Shown piece by piece: positions 3,974-31,999 of a stretch of 32,046 bases of DNA. Position numbers and translations under genes: made by a program. This DNA comes from a virus: positions 1 through 32,046 of the IMG/VR virus record IMGVR_UViG_3300032242_001320. One strand, written 5' to 3'. The notes under the pieces are model-generated. The model was not told where the DNA came from. It made no database searches and worked only from the letters and a program-made list of their open reading frames with translations. Every line of letters begins with the position of its first letter. Within the stretch, counting starts at the first letter, position 1.

Positions 3974-4505
3974 TTACTTCCAACCTGGACGCATACGAGC
4001 CATTTGGTCTACGCGCCTCTTGTCTAGTGACATTGGGGATGTGCTGCGCATGTTAGCTTTACCATCATTTGGTAGATGTGGCGCAGGCATAGCCATTGCG
4101 TCTTCTACATTGCGCTTACTGCGGTAAACGTTTCCATCTTTAACAGCTTTCATTTGGCGCGCAATACCGCGCATGTTATCCAAACCTTCTGGATAATAAT
4201 AATCTTGTACATCAATGCGCTCACCACGGTGAATACCACGTTGATATGAACGCTGACCAATACGTACTTTTAATCCATTTAATACACGGTCTGATGAGGA
4301 TGAATCGCGCCCTTTATCATCACGGCGTGAACGAATAGTTCCTAGGTAGCCGTCAGGGATACTCCGCTTGAGGGGTGCGACCCACTCCAATGCGGAGAAA
4401 ATCCAGTTCACTTCTCGCTACGGGCTGTCCTCCGCCACCATATACGGTGTTAGTACCGTACATGCTACCAGCGCCCAAATTTTGTATATTTTGGTGGTTA
4501 TTCAT
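3974..4505 (-). CDS. hypothetical protein, 176 aa, proposed product of a +1 translational frameshift
   Basis: Frame 0 begins at ATG 4505 (MNNHQNIQNLGAGSMYG) and stops at TGA 4353-4355 after 50 residues ending AEYP. Shifting +1 at CCC-TGA continues as DGYLGTIRSRRDD down to TAA at 3974, adding 126 residues. The joined junction, AEYP-DGYLGT, reads as a smooth protein. The downstream frame by itself opens only at a GTG (4411), whose first 19 residues are an overlap of the real N-terminal frame. The downstream part is basic and contains IDVQDYYYPEGLDN. No domain is recognised. The start overlaps the HNH gene end by 8 bases. A one-base sequencing error is the alternative explanation. Confidence 0.65.
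4353..4367 (-). promoter_or_regulatory. candidate prfB-like +1 frameshift signal (GCG GAG TAT CCC TGA C)
   Basis: On the minus strand, frame 0 reads GCG GAG TAT CCC TGA, and the next base is C. In prfB the site is AGG GGG TAT CTT TGA C. The layout matches: an internal Shine-Dalgarno-like GGAG, one TAT codon, a slippery codon, then UGA in the poor UGA-C context. A proline tRNA on CCC can re-pair with CCU after moving one base. Confidence 0.6.
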
Positions 4506-4902
4506 TTATACCCACCAGCTCTCTTCTATTAGATGTTCTTATAGCATGGCAATTTGCGCAAACTACATCACACTTAGCAATTTCAGCCCATAATACATCT
4601 CGGCTACGATTGCCAATTTCCTCACCTATATTAAACAGCTTTTCTGATGAATTTACATGGTCAAACTCTAATGCTGCTGGATGTTTATTAAACCCACAGT
4701 CCGCGCAACCTTTTTTAAGTTGATAGTCATGAATTTCTTTTGTTTTACGTTCAACATTTGGTCTTGTATATTTAACGTATAAACAGCGATTACATTGAGC
4801 CTGCCTAGTGCCAGACTGTCTCCCTTTAGACCAACGTAATTTAAAACTAGTTTCTGGCAAAGTTAAATTACAAGAAGTGCAAACTTTAATTTGAGTATCC
4901 AT
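4498..4902 (-). CDS. HNH endonuclease with two zinc-binding Cys clusters
   Basis: N-terminal knuckles CTSC (residues 8-11) and CNRC (37-40) precede an HNH core: CADC at 66-69, FDHV at 80-83 with His82 as the expected general base, and CANCH at 115-119 followed by RT. The core resembles Cys4-type HNH nucleases of phages, which nick or cut DNA with one metal ion. It could be a free-standing homing-type endonuclease or a packaging/recombination nuclease. Its tail overlaps the start of the frameshifted gene. A -10-like TATACT four bases before the ATG suggests a leaderless start of a new transcript. Confidence 0.85.
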   Translation of the reverse strand: MDTQIKVCTSCNLTLPETSFKLRWSKGRQSGTRQAQCNRCLYVKYTRPNVERKTKEIHDYQLKKGCADCGFNKHPAALEFDHVNSSEKLFNIGEEIGNRSRDVLWAEIAKCDVVCANCHAIRTSNRRELVGINE

Positions 4903-4912
4903 TGTAAGTATA
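4903..4912 (-). promoter_or_regulatory. putative leaderless promoter for the HNH gene
   Basis: TATACT (4907-4912 on the minus strand) followed by TACA lies directly before the ATG at 4902. No ribosome binding site is present. The spacing is two bases shorter than at the other leaderless candidates, so this is weaker. Confidence 0.35.
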
Positions 4913-4936
4913 GGATACCAAAATATATAGGACTAT

Positions 4937-4952
4937 GGGAGGTTTACCTCCC
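4937..4952 (-). terminator. possible weak terminator or attenuator hairpin
   Basis: GGGAGG and CCTCCC form a 6-bp, all-G/C-rich stem with a 4-base loop. On the minus strand it lies 18 bases past the metallophosphoesterase stop. Downstream is AT-rich (TATATATTTT) but lacks an immediate T run, so termination may be partial. Confidence 0.4.
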
Positions 4953-4969
4953 CATGTACGCCTATTTAA

Positions 4970-5986
4970 TTACAGACTGGACTTAAACTCTTTACCCTCG
5001 TAAACAGCCCATTTATCCATGATATGAATAGGTTGCAAGGTGAAATGACCATCGTCATGTACCCAACCAATCATGATTCCCTGTTGCCAATCTTCCCAAT
5101 GCTTAACAGGGCGCCCGTTATCATTAAGACCAGAACCATAAGATGGAACAGCTCCGTCTACACGGCATAGGCATCCAGGACTAGCGGAAACAGACCTGAT
5201 AGGACCATCACCATTAGCAACGGTTTTATATTGTAGTTCTTGTCTGTGTGCGTGCCCAAATACTGTTGATACATGAGGGTTCTTATTTACATATGCGCTG
5301 GCGGTAGAACCATTGCTACGTACGGTAGTTCCGTGGATAGCGCGAAGGTGTGGGGTAATCCAATACTCACCAGCAGGATAGGCGCCTACGTAATTAACGC
5401 CAAGTTCATCAAGGCGCAATAAATACTGGACAGACATTACTGGCCACTCATCGGGTGTTGAGTTAGCGCGCTTAATACCTTTTGATGCCATCGCGTTCAT
5501 AACAACATACTTCTGCATACGGCAATCATGGTTACCCTCTAATAAAGTAATTTTTGCAGTGGGGCATGTGGCACGTTGCTTAGCCAATAGTGCGTGACCA
5601 TAGTCAAGGGCTGGTTGGACTGTATGCGCAAACATTTCTTCCTGTGCATACTTACCCATTGTTGGAAGGTCTAGGTAGTCACCTAGGTGAACAATCTCAT
5701 CTACGCCATAACGCTTTTCTAAATAGGCAAGAAGCTGGAAGTGAACATCGATAGCAGCCTCATCATGAAATGGGTCCAGCGTCCCGTCTTCATATTTACG
5801 GTACCCAATCTGTGGGTCTGGAACAAATACAAATAACTTAAATCCGCCTTTGCTTGCTTGGCGCTCTTTATATTCTGCTGGCTTTATAACAGTCGGCTTT
5901 GCTTGTTGAATTGGTGGCCAAGCCCAATCAACATTAGGAACATCTTTTGCTGCGTTATTTAAAACATCTAAAAAATCTATCGGCAT
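4970..5986 (-). CDS. calcineurin-like metallophosphoesterase
   Basis: The family's metal-binding motifs appear in order in 338 residues: D-P-Q at 57-59 (a phage variant of the usual D-x-H), GDYLD at 102-106, GNHD at 151-154, a His at about 219 (HGTT) and GHAH at 244-247. These form a two-metal phosphoesterase centre. Members hydrolyse phosphomonoesters or phosphodiesters, some of them DNA nucleases; the substrate here is unknown. An N-terminal extension of about 50 residues precedes the catalytic fold. Its start overlaps the preceding small gene by 10 bases, and a hairpin follows its stop. Confidence 0.88.
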   Translation of the reverse strand: MPIDFLDVLNNAAKDVPNVDWAWPPIQQAKPTVIKPAEYKERQASKGGFKLFVFVPDPQIGYRKYEDGTLDPFHDEAAIDVHFQLLAYLEKRYGVDEIVHLGDYLDLPTMGKYAQEEMFAHTVQPALDYGHALLAKQRATCPTAKITLLEGNHDCRMQKYVVMNAMASKGIKRANSTPDEWPVMSVQYLLRLDELGVNYVGAYPAGEYWITPHLRAIHGTTVRSNGSTASAYVNKNPHVSTVFGHAHRQELQYKTVANGDGPIRSVSASPGCLCRVDGAVPSYGSGLNDNGRPVKHWEDWQQGIMIGWVHDDGHFTLQPIHIMDKWAVYEGKEFKSSL

Positions 5987-7790: not shown

Positions 7791-7957
7791 TATTTTCCTC
7801 CCCAACCGCCACCTTTAAAGTATGCTGGTGTTGCTGTCCATACTCTAGACATGTAAGACTGGCAAGAAGTGCAACTAGGACTACTTTCCTCATCAAAGGC
7901 TCTAGTAATCTCTACCACGGTGCTGCACTTCTCACACTTATAATCGTAACTAGGCAT
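7790..7957 (-). CDS. FmdB-family zinc-ribbon protein, 55 aa
   Basis: MPSYDYKCEKC at the start, then CTSC at residues 29-32 and an aromatic/Gly tail (AYFKGGGWGG), match the FmdB-type single zinc-ribbon family. That family typically begins MP-x-Y-x-Y-x-C-x-x-C. Members were named for a supposed regulator of a formamidase operon and their role is unclear. The gene overlaps the Ntn-hydrolase stop by eight bases. Confidence 0.75.
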   Translation of the reverse strand: MPSYDYKCEKCSTVVEITRAFDEESSPSCTSCQSYMSRVWTATPAYFKGGGWGGK

Positions 7958-8501
7958 ACTTTAACTGTTCCACTTCAATAAAAGGTCCAGATGTATAAAC
8001 GTCTAGCTTCTCAGCTATTTGAAGGGATTCTAGTACGCTTGAGCCAGCATGTAAAGCTCCTAGGGCATATGCCGCCCCATTACCTACTGCATATAGACCA
8101 TCTTCAGTGCGGCATACAGATAGGTCATCGGCTATGTCAAAGACCTCCCCATTGACAGCAATAAGGAAGTGAAACCTAGGGCCATTATCTTCTTTTTCTT
8201 GAGCTTCATCAAAATTATAACCGTTGGCTTTAAGCGCCTCTCTTAAAGAAGGCATCACTTTGGTAATCATAAAATGATATGTGTTCTTTTTATCCCCAGC
8301 TGTAGGTGCAGGCGGCTTCCATATATGCTGGGCCACGTCGCAAGGTTGAACCTCACCACTTCCAGCCACTAAAAACGCACCGCGTTCACTTATCTTTGCC
8401 ATGTCTATATGCCTATAAATGCGCCCAGAACCGTCTGTAACCTGGTTATCAGCGGCTAGAACACATCGGTCCTCATATTGGACAGCAACTATAGTGGTCA
8501 T
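7950..8501 (-). CDS. Ntn-hydrolase, HslV/proteasome-beta-like
   Basis: The N-terminus MTTIVAVQYED mirrors HslV and proteasome beta subunits after the initiator: Thr2 would be the nucleophile once Met is removed. LAADNQVTDG carries Asp18 (equivalent to Asp17 of the beta subunit), and AKI carries Lys36 (about Lys33). GNGAAYALGAL near residue 142 matches the G-x-G-x-x-Y-A-x-x-A segment of HslV. The length, 183, is near HslV's. No HslU-like ATPase is seen in the window. It may process a virion or host protein, or may be an inactive scaffold. The first residues make activity plausible. Confidence 0.8.
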   Translation of the reverse strand: MTTIVAVQYEDRCVLAADNQVTDGSGRIYRHIDMAKISERGAFLVAGSGEVQPCDVAQHIWKPPAPTAGDKKNTYHFMITKVMPSLREALKANGYNFDEAQEKEDNGPRFHFLIAVNGEVFDIADDLSVCRTEDGLYAVGNGAAYALGALHAGSSVLESLQIAEKLDVYTSGPFIEVEQLKYA

Positions 8502-10361: not shown

Positions 10362-10679
10362 TCATGAATTGTGGATAGTTACCCATTCCTCAAGTGTTTT
10401 ACCAGCTTTACTAGCTTTACGTTTAAGCGCGTTACGCTCACGGTGGCTCATGCCACCCCATATACCGTGCTGTTCATCCATAGACTCTGCGTACAATAAA
10501 CACTCTTTACGCACTGGACATTCTGGTAAACCGTCTTTGCCGTAACAGACAGCTTTAGATACCTCTGCTATAGCTCTATATTTAGATTTGTCTCTTGGTG
10601 GATACCAAAGTTCGGTGTCCATTCCTTGGCATTTGGCGTCATATCGCCAGCCTTCTTTGTGTCCGACATCGTCGTACAT
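10362..10679 (-). CDS. WhiB-family transcriptional regulator
   Basis: Four cysteines (17, 45, 54, 60) for a 4Fe-4S cluster, the GIWGG turn at 72-76, and a basic C-terminus (RERNALKRKASK) identify WhiB. The middle cysteine pair is spaced C-x8-C instead of the usual C-x2-C, an insertion of six residues. WhiB proteins bind the housekeeping sigma factor and change promoter choice, so this protein probably redirects host transcription. The ATG at 10679 has AGGAG five bases upstream and lies 112 bases inside the upstream gene. A later start would lose Cys17. Confidence 0.93.
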   Translation of the reverse strand: MYDDVGHKEGWRYDAKCQGMDTELWYPPRDKSKYRAIAEVSKAVCYGKDGLPECPVRKECLLYAESMDEQHGIWGGMSHRERNALKRKASKAGKTLEEWVTIHNS

Positions 10680-24153: not shown

Positions 24154-24170
24154 GTAGAAAGTCTACTACG
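24154..24170 (-). promoter_or_regulatory. putative leaderless promoter for the membrane protein
   Basis: ACGTAGTAGACTTTCTACATG reads as TAGACT (24160-24165), TTCTAC, ATG. The element overlaps the stop of the large tail protein. GTAG...CTAC also forms a short inverted repeat. No Shine-Dalgarno sequence. Confidence 0.45.
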
Positions 24171-26694
24171 TTTGTGGCTGTGCTATATACACTGCAGCAG
24201 TAGAGCCCATAGGCAATTCAGCGGTTAGAGTTGCCCCAAATAAGCGGGTTTGCACTACAAAACTATTCTTGTAGTAGTGGCTGCGTGCAGCGTTTGCCAC
24301 CCCACCTTCCCAGATAAAGTTACGGTAGTCACCCAGACCTGTAGAGCCATCAAAGTATGTGAGAAGTTGTCCGCTATTTTCAAACAAAGCGTGGTCTAGT
24401 AATAGAACGTGTGTAGATGTTGTAGACCAATCTACCTCAACACTTGCATATGCTGCTGTTGCTGGTGCAGTTCCAGTTACATATGGTCTAGTCCAAGACC
24501 CAGTTGGTATAGAGGTTGTAGTTCCTGTTGATGAACTGATTAAAGAGTAAGAGGTGTTGTACCAGTTAATTTTTAATGTAATTGATTCTGCTGCGGTTAC
24601 TGCTTGAGCATATGTGCTAAATGTGTAAGAGGTATTAGGGTAAAAAATGCCCATAAGTTGAGAGGTGGTTGAACCATCCCAAGACTTAGTTACTACAGAA
24701 CTACCAGAGGCAGTTACTTGTAGTTGATGTCCTGTGGCGTAGACAGAACCTGTTGTAACAGTTGAATTAGACGCCGTTACTGCATAGCTAAATGTGCTCA
24801 GGGTTACTGCTGTAATTGTTCTAGCCCCGTTGTAGTTAGACGCCCCTGTACCAGTAACTCCAGTAATAGTTACTGAAGAGCCTACTTGATATGAATGAGG
24901 GTGATTAAGGGTAACGGTTGCTACATTAGAAACAATGCTTGCTGTAGTAATTGAAAAAGTATCCGTACCTGGTTCTGGATATGTGGTTATGACTGATTGC
25001 GATGCCCCAGTAGATGTCCAAGGAGTAGCTGCTGTAGAGAAATTAGGATTTATTAATTCATTAATTCTATTAGCGCGAAGAGTGATATGTATTTGTCTAG
25101 CCTCATCAAATGATGTAGGTGTACTAGCTGCTTCAAATTGAGCCGCATCAAAGAAATGGTGCTCGTTAGTGGCAGAGCCTCCTACAGATGCAACAGAAAT
25201 TCCTGGGGCAGCATAATAGGCGCCAGTAGGAGCAGCGGCTGATACATAAGGACGGTATGAACCAGAGAATGTAGCTGTGTTATTAGATACCCCAGTACCA
25301 CTAGATGTAGATAAGTAAACACCAAAACGGTTATACCATTTAATTTTTGGGGTCACCGTGCGAGCTGTTGAACCAGCCCCTTTAGATATATAAATACTAA
25401 AACAGTATGTGGTTGCAGCAGTTACGGGTATTCCGTTTGTTATTGGCGCATCATCTCCACAATACAAGTTAAGTGTTTGGGCGCTTGCTGATGTGTTGTA
25501 GATAGAAAGAATACTGTTAGCTTTATTTGGAAATAGGGTGGGTGCTGTTGACTCTACCCATGGGGTTGGGTATGGAGTTATTAATCCATAAGCTCCAGTT
25601 GATTTGTTGTAACCAGTGGTGGCTGTCATGTTAGCACTAGTTAAAGCAAAACTTAAAGAGGTTGCTGTTACCGCCGTAATTGTATAAGGGCTTGCTGAAT
25701 TAAATAAAGGATAAGGAAGGCCACTAATTGTTATAAAGTTTCCAACATCGTATTGTTGATTATAATCTGCGCTAAAAGTTAATGTTGCAACGTTTGAGGT
25801 TACGGATACTGTTAATATATTCATTATTGGCATGTAATGTTTTCCTGCTGTGCCATCTACAGATACCCAATGACCAGTGCCTTCTTCAAATGAAGAGTCG
25901 TTATAGTCCAGCATAATGTTGTGGCCAATAGTGATTCCATTGGTACTTGGGTTAGGTGTGCCAGAGATAGGTACTGGAACTCCCCAGCCACTAAAGTCTT
26001 TAATAAAACCTAGTAATCCTTCTTTAGAACCTTTTTGCTTTGTAAGGGTAACCCCATCACGCAACAAAATGCGGTTTTGTTGAAGACCAATAGCTGGTTC
26101 ATACGTCTGACCAAATTGGTTCATAAGGGTTGGGACTAGCGCTCCATTTACTTTTTCAGGGTTATAGCGCTCTAGTAATAGCTCTGTCATTGTGTGCTCA
26201 TAGTCCAACTCAAAACCAAAGTTACTTAGGAATGAATAGAGGGCTGGATTATCCCAATCAGAAGAGGGGGAGTAAGGCGAAGTAATCTTGTAAATATCAG
26301 GAAGTGAGTTATAAAGATTTGTAGTGCTTCCTTGGTCTTTAACTGAAACCGCAAACGCGCTACCCGCATTAGACCAAGCATATTGAACAAGGTTATAAAC
26401 AAAAATTGTGTAGTAATAAAACTGGCTTGGTGCCAATCCAGTATCTTGATAGATAACAGGGTCTGCTCCGTTGTAGGCAGTTAGTATGATGGTTCCGTCA
26501 GATACATCTATAGGAAATCCGTAAGTGTTTCTTACGACAACTAACTTAGACCAGTTACCTGTTGGGTCTGTCCAGTTTAAAAGTATTTGACCTTGTTTAG
26601 ATGGAATTGCTGTAAAAGGGGTGGCGTCAAACTTAATAGGGTTATCCGTGCCGTAATAGGCTTCACCATAGTAATCAATTCCGTAGCGTGACAT
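24166..26694 (-). CDS. tail/baseplate protein, gpI-like with FnIII-like N-terminus and repeated carbohydrate-binding-like modules
   Basis: Residues 25-120 look like a fibronectin-III-type domain. Residues 128-235 resemble P2 tail protein I (NLYNSLPDIYKI, ELLLERYNPEKV, GSKEGLLGFIKDFSG). Two jelly-roll carbohydrate-binding-like units follow (about 258-521 and 543-773), each beginning N-x-L/Y-x-N style (NELINPNF) and ending near DAAQFE / DHALFE. Each unit is split by a copy of a small beta module (294-362 and 583-650). The C-terminus (774-842) may be an attachment end. It would connect the baseplate to receptor-binding parts. Confidence 0.8.
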   Translation of the reverse strand: MSRYGIDYYGEAYYGTDNPIKFDATPFTAIPSKQGQILLNWTDPTGNWSKLVVVRNTYGFPIDVSDGTIILTAYNGADPVIYQDTGLAPSQFYYYTIFVYNLVQYAWSNAGSAFAVSVKDQGSTTNLYNSLPDIYKITSPYSPSSDWDNPALYSFLSNFGFELDYEHTMTELLLERYNPEKVNGALVPTLMNQFGQTYEPAIGLQQNRILLRDGVTLTKQKGSKEGLLGFIKDFSGWGVPVPISGTPNPSTNGITIGHNIMLDYNDSSFEEGTGHWVSVDGTAGKHYMPIMNILTVSVTSNVATLTFSADYNQQYDVGNFITISGLPYPLFNSASPYTITAVTATSLSFALTSANMTATTGYNKSTGAYGLITPYPTPWVESTAPTLFPNKANSILSIYNTSASAQTLNLYCGDDAPITNGIPVTAATTYCFSIYISKGAGSTARTVTPKIKWYNRFGVYLSTSSGTGVSNNTATFSGSYRPYVSAAAPTGAYYAAPGISVASVGGSATNEHHFFDAAQFEAASTPTSFDEARQIHITLRANRINELINPNFSTAATPWTSTGASQSVITTYPEPGTDTFSITTASIVSNVATVTLNHPHSYQVGSSVTITGVTGTGASNYNGARTITAVTLSTFSYAVTASNSTVTTGSVYATGHQLQVTASGSSVVTKSWDGSTTSQLMGIFYPNTSYTFSTYAQAVTAAESITLKINWYNTSYSLISSSTGTTTSIPTGSWTRPYVTGTAPATAAYASVEVDWSTTSTHVLLLDHALFENSGQLLTYFDGSTGLGDYRNFIWEGGVANAARSHYYKNSFVVQTRLFGATLTAELPMGSTAAVYIAQPQT
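24745..24948 (-). repeat. beta module copy 2 (in the large tail protein)
   Basis: Residues 583-650 read SNVATVTLNHPHSYQVGSSV, then ITGV, NGARTITAVT and TFSYAVTASN. The pattern S-N-V-A-T-V/L-T ... V-G ... I-T-G ... T-F-S-Y/F-A matches copies at 25609-25815 and 26832-27023. Confidence 0.75.
25609..25815 (-). repeat. beta module copy 1 (in the large tail protein)
   Basis: Residues 294-362 read LTVSVTSNVATLTFSADYN, YDVGNFITISGLPYP, YTITAVTATSLSFALTSANM. It shares the frame of conserved positions of the other two copies but with more drift. Confidence 0.7.
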
Positions 26695-26696
26695 GG

Positions 26697-28466
26697 TTAG
26701 CTAAGAATTCCGCCCGTTACGTTTACTGTAAGACTTCCAATACCAGTTGCAGATGAGCTAGCTGTAGTTCCTAGTTCATATAGGGTAGGTATTTCGCTAG
26801 AGGCGCAAACAATATTCCCAACAGTCAAGGCTGTAACTGAACCAGAAGCCGACGCAGAAGATACGTTAGTCGCTACCAGAGCATACGAAAATGTATTAGT
26901 TGTAACTCCAGTGACAACAAAGGTACCGTTAAATGTTGAATCTACTCCTGTAACAGACACTGTCTGACCTACAGTTAGCGTGTGGGTAGCAGAGGTTGTT
27001 AAGGTAGCCACATTAGATGTCAGTGCTTTATTGTTAATTGTATAGGTTTGGTCTTGGTCCGCTCTAACCATTTTAGTTATGCTTTGGTACCCAACCCCAT
27101 CTACTGAAGCAATAGCTGAGTACACATCTGATACAGCAATTGTGTCTCCAAAAACCACGTTATCAATATATAAAAGCGCATTCAAAGCCGCTGTAACGTT
27201 TGTTAATACAGAGGATTGCTTATACTGTGGCAAAACGGTTACATTTACTATTAAGTAGACTCCAACATATTTAGGAGGTTGAAAGGTAATGGTTGTATTA
27301 GCTGGCGCTCTATCTGTTATAGCAGAAAGTACTTTTGTTGATAGGTTATTAAATACGGTTGTTGGGGTCACATTGTCAGAAGCAACTCCAGCATCACCAG
27401 AAGGTGCAAAATACAAAGTAATGGATGTATAAACGCTTGCAGTAGCTACGGCCTTTGCAACTCCAGATACTTGAACAGCAAGAGCTGAATAGTCTGTTAA
27501 AGATACAGCCCTGTTAATTGCACGAATGCTTAATGGAGCATTGATTCTAATAGAATCTGTTGATTCAGCATCTGAACCCCCAGTTGCCGCACCATCACCA
27601 GAAATTGTAATATCTTGATTTGCAACTGTAAGTCCGACAGGAATGGTGGAACTAGGTACATTAATAATATAGTTAATTGTGTTTGAGGCAACGTTTCCTT
27701 GAGAGCCAGCTCCTATTCTATACGTTGCATAAATTGCTACGCCATTAGGCGGAATTCTTCCACTGATACTATCTCCAAATGTTACATATGTGTATCCATC
27801 AGCATTAGTAAATGTTGTGTAAACAGGGTCATAGCTATTAGAATCAATTAAATATTGAACTCTTTGGTATGAAACACCATTAATTGTAATTTGAACTGAT
27901 GAATTAATTACTGAACTATTTGATAATTGATATGATTGATTTGAACTTCCATCAGATGTGCCTATAATTTCATTATAAACTGTCTCACCTTGAGTGGCTA
28001 TTACTGTAGCTGACCCGTTAGCTGCACCAACAGCTGCTGGGATAGATAACGCGGAATTAGTTTCAAATACAATTTGATTTGTAGTTGCATTTTGAACTAA
28101 TGAGGTTGCTACTTGAGTCAACGCTGGTATAGTGATAATAGAACCCGTTGAATTTTGAAAAGTTAAAGTTACAGTAGCTGCTGTAATATCTGTTGGTGTA
28201 TATCCAAGAAGATTAGATATTTGAAGAACGCTTGAGCGCTGAGTAGCTGTGGCAATAAAAGCCTCGTTAGCAGCGCGGTCAATGTAATAGTTTAGGATAT
28301 CTCCCATGTAGGAAAATAGCTCCAACAAGGTCATACCAAAGTCTGCAGGGTCTCTATTTGTCCAATTAGGAGAGAAGTTAGGTATCAAGGTTGTCATATC
28401 AGACAAAATTGATGCGTAGTCTCTAGATGTGTAGTCTATAGACGGTACATAGTTACTTGTTGCCAT
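26697..28466 (-). CDS. baseplate J-like protein
   Basis: The N-terminal half (DYTSRDYASILSDMTTLIPN, FSYMGDILNYYIDRAANEAF, QISNLLGYTP) and the mid region (GSDAESTDSIRINAPLSIRA, LTDYSALA) match baseplate J/gp6-type proteins. Those form the wedge ring of contractile tails. At 589 residues it is longer than P2 gpJ (302), near Mu-like and myophage J proteins. A beta module is inserted at 482-545 close to the C-terminus. GGAGG lies six bases before the ATG. It overlaps the gp25-like gene by 14 bases. Confidence 0.92.
   Translation of the reverse strand: MATSNYVPSIDYTSRDYASILSDMTTLIPNFSPNWTNRDPADFGMTLLELFSYMGDILNYYIDRAANEAFIATATQRSSVLQISNLLGYTPTDITAATVTLTFQNSTGSIITIPALTQVATSLVQNATTNQIVFETNSALSIPAAVGAANGSATVIATQGETVYNEIIGTSDGSSNQSYQLSNSSVINSSVQITINGVSYQRVQYLIDSNSYDPVYTTFTNADGYTYVTFGDSISGRIPPNGVAIYATYRIGAGSQGNVASNTINYIINVPSSTIPVGLTVANQDITISGDGAATGGSDAESTDSIRINAPLSIRAINRAVSLTDYSALAVQVSGVAKAVATASVYTSITLYFAPSGDAGVASDNVTPTTVFNNLSTKVLSAITDRAPANTTITFQPPKYVGVYLIVNVTVLPQYKQSSVLTNVTAALNALLYIDNVVFGDTIAVSDVYSAIASVDGVGYQSITKMVRADQDQTYTINNKALTSNVATLTTSATHTLTVGQTVSVTGVDSTFNGTFVVTGVTTNTFSYALVATNVSSASASGSVTALTVGNIVCASSEIPTLYELGTTASSSATGIGSLTVNVTGGILS
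26832..27023 (-). repeat. beta module copy 3 (in baseplate J)
   Basis: Residues 482-545 of the baseplate J protein read LTSNVATLTTSATHTLTVGQ, VSVTGV, NGTFVVTGVT, TFSYALVATN. It matches the module found twice in the next gene. It splits the J C-terminus between YTINNKA and LTVGNIVC. Confidence 0.7.
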
Positions 28467-28866
28467 ATGGAACCTCCGTAATTACATCCCCAGCTTGGCT
28501 AAGAATATCAGTTTTAACTGTTACAGTCTCAGGGTTCTGAGAGTTTCCGTACTTATAGGTAATTGACACATCTAAATGCCCGTCATCTTGACTTATAGAT
28601 GGGTCTAAAGAAATAAGAGTTAAGTAAGGAAGCATATTTGCAAATCCTTGTGATATTTCTTTTTTAATCATGGCTACCGCTGCGTTATTGTTTTCAAAAG
28701 ATGAGGCGCGAACCCTTGTGCCATATCCAGGTCGCATTATTCTTTCACTAACTAAAGTCATAATTGCAAGAACTACTCTATCCTGTATTATCTTCTTCTG
28801 GTCAGTAGTGCTGTAGATAGCCCCATTATCATCAAAAGAAAAAGGCAAAGCTATTGCTTTACTCAT
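28453..28866 (-). CDS. gp25/gpW-like baseplate wedge protein
   Basis: The 137 residues carry the gp25-type signature ERIMRPGYGTRVRASSFENN (residues 41-60), here with the Pro-Gly-Tyr-Gly-x-x-V/L core, and flanking helices. The strand SITYKYGNSQNPETVTVKTD lies near the C-terminus. In T4 this protein clamps sheath to baseplate. It overlaps gpV-like by four bases and baseplate J by 14, in the conserved V-25-J order. Confidence 0.85.
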   Translation of the reverse strand: MSKAIALPFSFDDNGAIYSTTDQKKIIQDRVVLAIMTLVSERIMRPGYGTRVRASSFENNNAAVAMIKKEISQGFANMLPYLTLISLDPSISQDDGHLDVSITYKYGNSQNPETVTVKTDILSQAGDVITEVPYGNK

Positions 28867-29327
28867 AGTTCAACTCCCATCCATACTGGAAAATTAGGGT
28901 CTCCTGCGATAAACATAACCCATACTTTTTGTTTAACATCTGGAACTAGTCTGTGAGGCGTATGTTCTAAAGCGCTTGTCAAATCATTATAGGCGCCAGA
29001 AGAGGCGTTCCATTTATTACTTTTGTTTACTGTTGTTACGTGTGGATGAGTTAACTGAAGACCTGTAGTTCCTTGAATAGAATGCGTATGAGACGGTGAA
29101 CCAGCACTAGTCATATTTAATAAAGCAGCTACTTGAGCAGCCGTATGCGCTATGTGGTCAGGGTGATTAGAGTTATCTGTTACAGGAAGGCATGGCTTTG
29201 CCCAATCTGTTTCAGAATCGCCTAATACTTGAGGCACTTTTAGTTTAATCATAGATTTTTTAGTAGGGTCTTGATTATTGGTGCAGATTCCCTCATATAT
29301 TCCGTAAAAGCGCTTGTCTTCGTTCAT
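28863..29327 (-). CDS. gpV/gp5-like baseplate spike protein with His-rich insert
   Basis: The first 50 residues (GIYEGICTNN, MIKLKVPQVLGDSETDWAKPCLPV) and the last 30 (VKQKVWVMFIAGDPNFPVWMGVEL) form an OB-type fold as in gp5/gpV. A His-rich segment (55-125) with HTH (80-82), HPH (94-96) and EHTPH separates the halves. The spike tip of P2 gpV binds metal with His-x-His. That this insert does so is inference. At 154 residues a full beta-helix spike would be absent. Confidence 0.75.
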   Translation of the reverse strand: MNEDKRFYGIYEGICTNNQDPTKKSMIKLKVPQVLGDSETDWAKPCLPVTDNSNHPDHIAHTAAQVAALLNMTSAGSPSHTHSIQGTTGLQLTHPHVTTVNKSNKWNASSGAYNDLTSALEHTPHRLVPDVKQKVWVMFIAGDPNFPVWMGVEL

Positions 29328-30655
29328 AGTATTCCAGGTATCTTTGTTAATAGTCGATTAGAGGTTTGAGAAGTGCTTCCAACTGGTTGCGCTGCTGGGT
29401 TAAGTGTAGCTGTTGCTGAAACCCAAACTGGACCATTAGTTGTAGTTTTAGCTCTATTAGCTAAAGTTCCAAATGACCCTACCGATTGAGGGCCTAGGTT
29501 AGGTGATGTTTTTAATATGTTAGAGGCTGGCACAATTGCTGTTTGGCGCACATTTGGTATAACAGTTCGTGCTGGAGTAGCGGCTGGTTGTGTGATTACT
29601 TTTCCATCTGTCCAGGCAACAGCAGCCCCCAAAGAATCAGTTCCTACAGTAAGAATAGTTGTATAAATTTGGCTATTTCTTTCTTTCTCTATAACCTTAT
29701 GCTCTGCGCTAAGGATGGTCCAATAGCCAGTATAGTAATTGCCTAAACCGTCTAAGTAAATAGGCAAATCTGGTCTTAAAGTAGGATTGCCTAATACTTC
29801 TACTGTAGCTCTGTAAGGAAATGCGTTCCTATCATCAGCTGCTTTGGATTCATGCTTAGCAACTGCTGCAGTTGTTGCTACCACATGGGTATGAAACTTA
29901 TCATAAAATTCTGTAGATGATTTGGCTTTAGTTACTTTTGCTTTGTTTTTAGTTGTTAAAGCTATAGGTGTAGTTGTTGCTGTATCTAAACCAGATACCG
30001 CCACCGCAGCCTTCATATCGCCGTCATAAGTTAAAGACTCACCTATCATAGGTTCAAAAGAATATATAGTGGAGCCATTAGGGTCATTTGAATCTCGCAT
30101 TACAAAATAAGCCGCTTCTGACCGTTTACTTGTGTATTCATAAAGCATTGGCTGAAAATAAATCTCTGTGTTTTCGGCTCTTAGGCTATATCCTGATTGT
30201 TTAGCCAACCTAACCATTAGCTCCCAATCTGTATGACCAGCTTGGGATACTTGAGGATATATACGGGGATGCCCAACGGTAAATGCAACAAATTTATATT
30301 TTTTAGCAATCTTTTGAATAATTGCATCAGCAGATAGGCCTTTATAAACGTATTGTGATTCATTTTTCATAACCATTGAGGCGCCTACCACCACAACTTC
30401 AGTTAAAAAAGAGCCAGGAGTTCTGCTCACATTTACATGGTGAACATAGCCTTTAAATGTTTTTGAGGTTTTAGTGTTACCTATAGTAAACTGTATTGGA
30501 GAACCGCTTTCCACAACATCATACCTAACAGCCCAGTCTCTAAATTGAATTACAGCTATCTCATGCTCATATTTAGTTTGATAAAATTGCATGGAGTATA
30601 CATATGAGGGTCCTACTGTTGTATTTGGAAAAGTTACTGTAACGTAATTAAACAT
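29324..30655 (-). CDS. gpD/gp27-like tail hub protein
   Basis: The 443 residues fit the late-control-D/hub family. Strands at the start (FQFYQTKYEHEIAVIQFRDW) are of the gp27 beta-barrel type. A hub-typical GLSADAIIQKIAKKY follows near residue 104, then DWELMVRLAKQSGYSLRAEN near 145 and strand-rich barrels after it. The C-terminal 100 residues are a Thr/Pro/Asn-rich tail. In T4-like tails this hub trimer holds the spike. The gene overlaps gpV-like by four bases and the LysM-like gene by eight. Confidence 0.87.
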   Translation of the reverse strand: MFNYVTVTFPNTTVGPSYVYSMQFYQTKYEHEIAVIQFRDWAVRYDVVESGSPIQFTIGNTKTSKTFKGYVHHVNVSRTPGSFLTEVVVVGASMVMKNESQYVYKGLSADAIIQKIAKKYKFVAFTVGHPRIYPQVSQAGHTDWELMVRLAKQSGYSLRAENTEIYFQPMLYEYTSKRSEAAYFVMRDSNDPNGSTIYSFEPMIGESLTYDGDMKAAVAVSGLDTATTTPIALTTKNKAKVTKAKSSTEFYDKFHTHVVATTAAVAKHESKAADDRNAFPYRATVEVLGNPTLRPDLPIYLDGLGNYYTGYWTILSAEHKVIEKERNSQIYTTILTVGTDSLGAAVAWTDGKVITQPAATPARTVIPNVRQTAIVPASNILKTSPNLGPQSVGSFGTLANRAKTTTNGPVWVSATATLNPAAQPVGSTSQTSNRLLTKIPGIL

Positions 30656-30929
30656 TTGGTATTTTTAAAACCGTCCCTACTGGAATAGCTGTAAAGTCAG
30701 CAACTTGAGGATTAAATTCAGGAATAATCCACCAAAAAGCTGGGTCTTTATAATACTTAAACGCAATTTGGTCTAGGCGTTCACCTTCAACGTATTCATG
30801 CTCAATATAAGTTACCCCACCTAAAGTTGTAAAATCATAAAACACAATTGGATTAGCTTGACCATTTACAGTTTTAGAAACAAAATCAATTGTAGAGTAC
30901 TCATATCTAGAGCCTTTATATATTGTCAT
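30648..30929 (-). CDS. LysM / gpX-like tail protein, 93 aa
   Basis: Residues 47-91 (YVEGERLDQIAFKYYKDPAF, WWIIPEFNP, TAIPVGTVLKIP) make a LysM-type fold close to P2 gpX / T4 gp53. Such proteins sit in the baseplate hub or wedge and recognise glycan or the tube. The first 30 residues are basic/aromatic. The gene overlaps the hub gene by eight bases and follows the tube-like gene by two. Confidence 0.85.
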   Translation of the reverse strand: MTIYKGSRYEYSTIDFVSKTVNGQANPIVFYDFTTLGGVTYIEHEYVEGERLDQIAFKYYKDPAFWWIIPEFNPQVADFTAIPVGTVLKIPNV

Positions 30930-30931
30930 TA

Positions 30932-31999
30932 TTACCCCTTACTTAATAATGAAACACGAGAGAAGGCATTAAATGACATAGTAATTTCTGAATGAATTGG
31001 AATCATATCTTCTGTAAACATAGTGTGGTTTATATTTAAACTCTCTATCCAACCTACATATGAAAGGCTGTCTGGATTTGGACCTAATTGAAGTGCAATT
31101 GCGGTAGGGGACAAAAATGATAAATCTGCTGTTTCTCTATTTAGAGCATTGACCCAAACAAGGTCTTTTCCAGACTTATCTACACGTCCAGAACCATTAA
31201 TCATTTTATACATAAACTCAATATCTGCCATAGTACCTTTTTTCATTAAGTCATTAATAAGAGCAGATGTATTTTGTTTAACTCCAGCAGTTCCTCCAGC
31301 CGTATAAAATTGAGTATATCCACCAGGGGTATTTAAGCTTTTAAAACAAGCAAAGTCATTAACTCTATCAATTACAATAGTTAATTGAATTGCCTCCATA
31401 GCGGTAAATAGACCACTTAAAGCTGCGTGTGCATCTAAAGCGCTAGGAACTACATTAGCGTTTCTAGTTAATACGCTGTTAAATTGTTGAGGATTCCATA
31501 AAAATTGAAAACCCCAATGCGTATTTGCATCACTAGATTTAGTTGTTCCAGTGGTTGATGCAGTTGCTGCGGTATTGCTTGGGGTCAAAATACCATTACT
31601 ACTAACACCCGTTGCATCTGCGTAATACCACATGATGGCTCTACGTGTTGAGTTATCTACAGTATTACCTTTATAAATAGAGGTATCTGTTGTTGAAGGT
31701 TTTACAGGTAAACTCCAAGCATGTGGGGGTAAATTAAATTGCATTGTTGTAGGTGCGGCATAGGAAGCTGGTGTAAACGGCGCTGGTCCAGGTTTTGTTT
31801 TTCCAGCTGCCGCTGCCGCTGCAGTTTTTTTAGCCATATATAAAAGACCTGCATTTTGTCGAGTAGTTATTGGTGCATTAACATTAACCCCAGCAGGTAC
31901 TTTGGTAAAAAAGTTTGCTATTCCAGTTATAGCTCTTCTTAAAGGGGTACCTGTATTAGTTTTTGTAGCTGAACTTTTACCAGAAGTTGTACTTGCCAT
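30932..31999 (-). CDS. contractile-tail tube/baseplate-cap-like protein, 355 aa
   Basis: Residues 165-355 contain a pattern resembling tube-initiator / CIS tube proteins: FQFLWNPQQFNSVLTRNANV, then LSYVGWIESLNINHTMFTED and MIPIHSEITMSFNAFSRVSL. The N-terminal half is Ala/Thr/Lys-rich and likely disordered (AAAAAAGKTKPGPAP). The gene directly precedes the LysM-like and hub genes. Together these support a role joining the tube and baseplate. AGGAAAG is the ribosome binding site. Confidence 0.7.
   Translation of the reverse strand: MASTTSGKSSATKTNTGTPLRRAITGIANFFTKVPAGVNVNAPITTRQNAGLLYMAKKTAAAAAAGKTKPGPAPFTPASYAAPTTMQFNLPPHAWSLPVKPSTTDTSIYKGNTVDNSTRRAIMWYYADATGVSSNGILTPSNTAATASTTGTTKSSDANTHWGFQFLWNPQQFNSVLTRNANVVPSALDAHAALSGLFTAMEAIQLTIVIDRVNDFACFKSLNTPGGYTQFYTAGGTAGVKQNTSALINDLMKKGTMADIEFMYKMINGSGRVDKSGKDLVWVNALNRETADLSFLSPTAIALQLGPNPDSLSYVGWIESLNINHTMFTEDMIPIHSEITMSFNAFSRVSLLSKG

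Follow-up and report, generated by a model that had tools for sequence, protein, structure and literature searches.

In phages very likely to infect Actinobacteria, an HNH endonuclease gene is closely linked to a one-base shift in the gene that follows it, and the two frames of that gene can be joined by a prfB-like +1 frameshift. We consider it quite probable, reading across related sequences, that the HNH protein cuts the site in unshifted phages, that the one-base insertion is the resistant allele and that +1 frameshifting rescues the protein. The locus lies in a 32,046-base virus record, analysed whole and called the window here; position numbers refer to the whole stretch (Table 1).

The shift signal and the predicted joined product

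The first-pass annotation had described a 50-residue frame from ATG 4505 to TGA 4353–4355 and a 126-residue frame that joins it after a +1 move at CCC; both hold on the minus strand, and joined they would give a product of 176 residues. The +1 shift site in the target gene is GCGGAGTATCCCTGAC, and the window's junction reads GCG GAG TAT CCC TGA CGG. An SD-like GGAG (4365–4362, within GCG GAG) sits three bases upstream of the slip codon CCC (4358–4356), with the single Tyr codon TAT (4361–4359) in between, and the stop TGA (4355–4353) is followed by C (4352), which is the prfB-like layout that had been claimed. With CCCT read as Pro, T4355 is skipped, GAC (D51), GGC and TAC follow, and 126 codons run to the stop at 3974–3976, so that one 176-aa protein would come from both frames.

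Table 1 Features of the window around the shift site
Feature	Coordinates	Strand	Remarks
Target gene, zero-frame 5' part, 50 codons, ending at TGA	4353..4505	-	ATG 4505; C-terminal PQAEYP
Target gene, +1-frame 3' part, D51 to K176 plus stop	3974..4354	-	single-frame relatives
Shift signal GCG GAG TAT CCC TGA C	4352..4367	-	kept in 25/25 distinct shifted alleles; putative conversion-tract border; putative HNH target in unshifted relatives
HNH endonuclease gene, 134 aa	4498..4902	-	phrog_2255, E 6e-31; putative freestanding homing endonuclease
Putative homing/co-conversion tract: HNH insert and divergent first ~150 nt of target	4353..4955	-	comparison with L001
Metallophosphoesterase gene, upstream flank of insert	4970..5986	-	phrog_20266, E 2e-91

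The downstream frame had also been said to lack an ATG near its beginning and a good ribosome binding site, and the point about starts holds. Before the site, the window's +1 frame offers GTG 4411 and one TTG as its sole start candidates, and four alleles (L085, L095, L101 and L105) carry no start codon near the junction in that frame. We give very little credence to two separate proteins with the second made by internal initiation or reinitiation: some alleles, the window's among them, do have a GTG or ATG before the site in the +1 frame, but the four start-less alleles argue against this, as does the fixation of the SD-like motif, CCY and UGA-C.

Slippage at CCC_UGA is plausible, because the tsh genes of Listeria phages PSA, A118 and A500 undergo +1 shifts there and E. 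coli pheL shifts at CCC_UGA with 15% efficiency (PMC5009743).

Shifted and unshifted alleles in the family

Relatives of the joined protein were confirmed in 173 stretches of viral contigs. Among the 80 of these listed, nearly all encode it in a single frame, including the sister contig L001 (99% protein identity), while L059 has the identical shift with several synonymous differences close by. Scanning for the shifted sequence pattern gave 27 contigs, 26 of them in the target-gene family; the other, L082, is unrelated and matched the DNA pattern by chance. With the window included and duplicates removed, there were 25 distinct shifted alleles and at least 147 distinct unshifted ones. The shifted or unshifted label needs 15 changes on the gene tree, and well-supported branches force at least 13 of them. 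The conserved CCC-TGA in independent genomes, for which the first-pass annotation had advised looking, is present in these 25 alleles, with CCC or CCT as the slip codon. That annotation had also counted single-frame homologues lacking a slip site as evidence against the shift; most of the family is indeed of this kind, but the shift is not refuted, since the shifted form is one variant that recurs in the family. A one-base read error had been its other concern. The extra base does fall within a run of C, but the same +1 arrangement recurs in 25 distinct alleles, drawn from many metagenomes and in part reading CCT-TGA instead of CCC-TGA, which leaves sequencing or assembly error with practically no probability.

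All 25 distinct shifted alleles read GCG-GAR-TAY-CCY-TGA-C. The slip codon is never CCA, TGA C follows it in 25/25, and the SD-like element (GGAG, or GGAA in 5 of the 26 matches) keeps the same spacing in every shifted allele. Unshifted relatives encode the same residues mostly as GCA GAA TAT CCA GAT. After dereplication at 80% identity, which left 14 shifted and 90 unshifted genes, GCG was used in 14/14 shifted versus 9/90 unshifted genes (Fisher 1e-11), GAC in 14/14 versus 30/90 (Fisher 1e-6) and GAG in 12/14 versus 27/90. Median predicted anti-SD pairing was −6.1 kcal/mol in shifted versus −1.7 kcal/mol in unshifted alleles (p 7e-14). Part of this codon conservation reflects the common ancestry of a transferred cassette. 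The 60 nt after TGA had no unusual RNA structure (mean z −0.29 shifted versus 0.31 unshifted).

The ratio pN/pS was 0.42–0.48 in both halves of the gene and equal in shifted and unshifted genes, so the shifted genes are not decaying. A broken pseudogene left behind by homing, with no frameshifting, would account for an inserted base and an in-frame stop in a gene otherwise read in one frame, but is scarcely credible when both halves evolve as in unshifted relatives and the shift signal persists among alleles with wide differences in the rest of the gene. Conservation of the signal across divergent phages, purifying selection on both halves and the start-less alleles, all read from sequence comparison, support the earlier proposal of prfB-like +1 programmed frameshifting.

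The target protein matched no Pfam or PHROG family, and its AlphaFold model was poor (pLDDT 53). We considered whether the target gene might be prfB (RF2) itself and rejected this, as its product has no such match. The window carries a WhiB transcription factor gene (10362–10679, minus strand), and cellular-genome relatives of the target family are all in Actinobacteria; the host is therefore very likely actinobacterial, and likely of the class Actinomycetes. In sampled Actinomycetes genomes, above-cut-off prfB matches cover the model from positions 1–5 in one open frame; because the sampled prfB is unshifted, the phage appears to rely on a prfB-like signal that the sampled host class does without in prfB itself. 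Elsewhere on the minus strand of the window, long predicted proteins at 24166–31999 resemble, from translations read by eye, tail and baseplate parts of contractile-tailed phages, and 7950–8501 encodes a proteasome-subunit-like protein that fell under the Pfam cut-off.

An HNH gene tied to the shift

The end of the HNH gene overlaps the start of the target gene by 8 nt. The gene lies outside any intron and adjoins its presumed target, and in many relatives without HNH the target gene directly follows a metallophosphoesterase gene. The HNH residues are invariant among the HNH proteins, with the catalytic motif intact; top Foldseek matches were beta-beta-alpha-Me nucleases, but weak, and a sequence comparison with the PDB gave no significant match.

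Among loci for which 1 kb or more upstream was available, HNH was immediately upstream in 15/21 shifted and 0/136 unshifted cases. In the tree set (at least 600 bases upstream), HNH-bearing loci were 15 shifted and 0 unshifted, and HNH-free loci 6 shifted and 134 unshifted (Fisher 2e-16). On the tree of the 3' part, on which HNH presence needs 11 changes, about 9 of 11 independent pairs agree with the linkage of HNH to the shift and none is opposite. A scan seeded on HNH only, and blind to the state of the target, returned 19 close loci, some near-identical. The site was altered in every one of them: 17 were shifted, one unshifted locus carried D51E (L234, codon GAA) and another E48T (L250), and the canonical in-frame site occurred in none. 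The site is otherwise nearly invariant, AEYPDGYLG, in tblastn relatives, with D51E only in L234; E48T in L250 may be lineage drift. The six shifted alleles without HNH (L084, L085, L086, L101, L105 and L106) we read as apparent products of short conversion tracts or of HNH loss.

Other genes also occur in this neighbourhood. L084 has a different HNH-like ORF farther upstream of the target gene, an unrelated 192-aa ORF is directly upstream in L085, and other ORFs occupy this place in L116 and L201, which suggests that the region upstream of the target gene is a candidate insertion hot spot. A second HNH gene of L083 (6121–6513; 32% identical) lies about 6.6 kb farther upstream on that contig, and more distant HNH relatives adjoin other genes in L251–L264.

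Comparison of close relatives revealed how the gene's 5' part differs from its surroundings. L001 lacks HNH, and its flanks are about 98% identical to the window; across the target gene, identity is 72–86% from the start codon to the shift site and 96–100% thereafter. This divergent patch, ending exactly at the shift site, appears to be the mark of intronless homing with co-conversion. L105 and L220 have flanks 97–100% identical, with a patch of about 95 nt of almost purely synonymous differences that ends at the same base. L105 carries no HNH gene, as expected if repair copied a short tract only. Likelihood change points fell 2 nt past the slip codon for window/L001 and L105/L220 (LLR 24.7 and 20.3). 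Others fell at +8 to +14, and the tract border is not always at the shift, because some tracts run to +80 to +120 nt past the site. Shifted alleles also resemble one another in the 5' part but not in the 3' part (identity 0.91 versus 0.73 for L083/L103; 0.87 versus 0.74 for L086/L098), and the 5'–3' identity difference was 0.057 for shifted versus nearest unshifted alleles and 0.009 among unshifted ones. With the 3' part controlled for, HNH distance tracks that of the target's 5' part (partial r 0.67, p 2e-4); no such correlation holds in the converse test with the 3' part (0.14, p 0.12). The close unshifted sisters were also considered as revertants of the shifted allele, which is unsupported, as their 5' parts differ. 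Presence or absence of HNH among close relatives, together with co-converted flanking DNA, is the pattern of a freestanding homing endonuclease.

A real +1 frameshift could instead serve regulation, with dose set through RF2 and UGA as in prfB and HNH a mere hitchhiker nearby. The prfB layout of the signal and the six HNH-free shifted alleles fit this, but we regard it as unlikely: most relatives encode the protein without any shift, HNH accompanies 15/21 shifted versus 0/134 unshifted alleles, conversion tracts stop at the shift site, and prfB is unshifted in the sampled Actinomycetes. The prfB-like shift proposed in the first-pass annotation is supported; that annotation missed both the upstream HNH linkage and the gene-conversion tracts ending at the site; given these, the likely purpose moves from regulation to a nuclease-resistant allele.

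In the proposed explanation of a resistant allele rescued by recoding, the HNH protein would be a freestanding homing endonuclease directed at the AEYPDGYLG-coding stretch of the downstream gene, and it would cut or nick this conserved stretch in unshifted phages. With residues that hardly vary, such a target is difficult to alter through amino-acid changes. A single base inserted right at this stretch would block recognition or cleavage of the carrier's own DNA; such an insertion would be tolerable only where the ribosome corrects it, and the shifted allele carries the prfB-like signal because the insertion alone would destroy the protein. The ribosome would pause at UGA, the SD-like GGAG would help the P-site tRNA-Pro to advance one base, and this move would restore a full protein of about 176 aa in vivo. 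During co-infection the unshifted genome would be broken, and repair would copy the gene's 5' part from the shifted phage, often with HNH. The synonymous differences in shifted tracts could themselves give resistance, the inserted base then being incidental.

Relation to known recoding and homing systems

In phage T4, the 50 bypassed nucleotides of gene 60 may have protected against the nuclease activity that spreads the adjacent homing endonuclease (Atkins et al. 2016, PMC5009743; for the gene 60/mobA arrangement, PMC3014915). As with gene 60 and MobA, the window has a putative HNH homing endonuclease gene upstream of a gene that would depend on recoding, relatives without the endonuclease encode the protein in one frame, and the inserted bases are thought to be protective, although for the window we infer this resistance. 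The mechanisms differ: T4 bypasses 50 nt by means of a hairpin and the nascent peptide, whereas the window has a single extra base and a predicted prfB-type +1 shift, with no long coding gap between matching take-off and landing codons. T4 has the gene 39/60 split, whereas the window's target gene is whole. Gene 60 is a single known case, but the shifted allele turns up repeatedly in different phages, and the family's tree calls for about 11 gains or losses of HNH.

The window shares with prfB an SD-like motif spaced three bases ahead of the slip codon, a UAU codon, and UGA followed by C; unlike prfB, its family has CCY rather than CUU as the slip codon, the product is not a release factor, most homologues are unshifted and the gene has no known autoregulation. 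Listeria tsh is likewise a phage gene with a +1 shift at a proline CCC before UGA. There the shift makes a second product from the major tail protein gene, whereas in the window UGA stands at codon 51, the shift joins what is a single protein in relatives, and an endonuclease is linked. The freestanding T4 endonucleases Seg and Mob promote intronless homing (PMC2988022). They resemble the window's case in lying beside or near the target, in co-conversion and in a donor presumed here, too, to be resistant through an altered site. Their resistant alleles are described as replaced or divergent sequence, and the window would add a frame-breaking insertion rescued by recoding. Our literature search, with most subscription journals outside it, returned no account of a programmed frameshift acting as a homing-resistant allele.

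We think it likely that nuclease and frameshift form one mobile unit, and that the shift evolved as homing immunity and spread repeatedly in actinobacterial phages, with nuclease-free copies serving as resistance alleles. Naturally occurring shifted and unshifted sister phages allow this reading to be tested directly. To our knowledge, T4 gene 60 has long stood almost alone as an example of recoding coupled to a homing endonuclease; if our reading is true, the present gene is a second case beside it, widespread and with a different mechanism. It would also point to translational recoding as something that can emerge as a defence against selfish nucleases, and would thereby account in general terms for the odd frameshifts of single genes.
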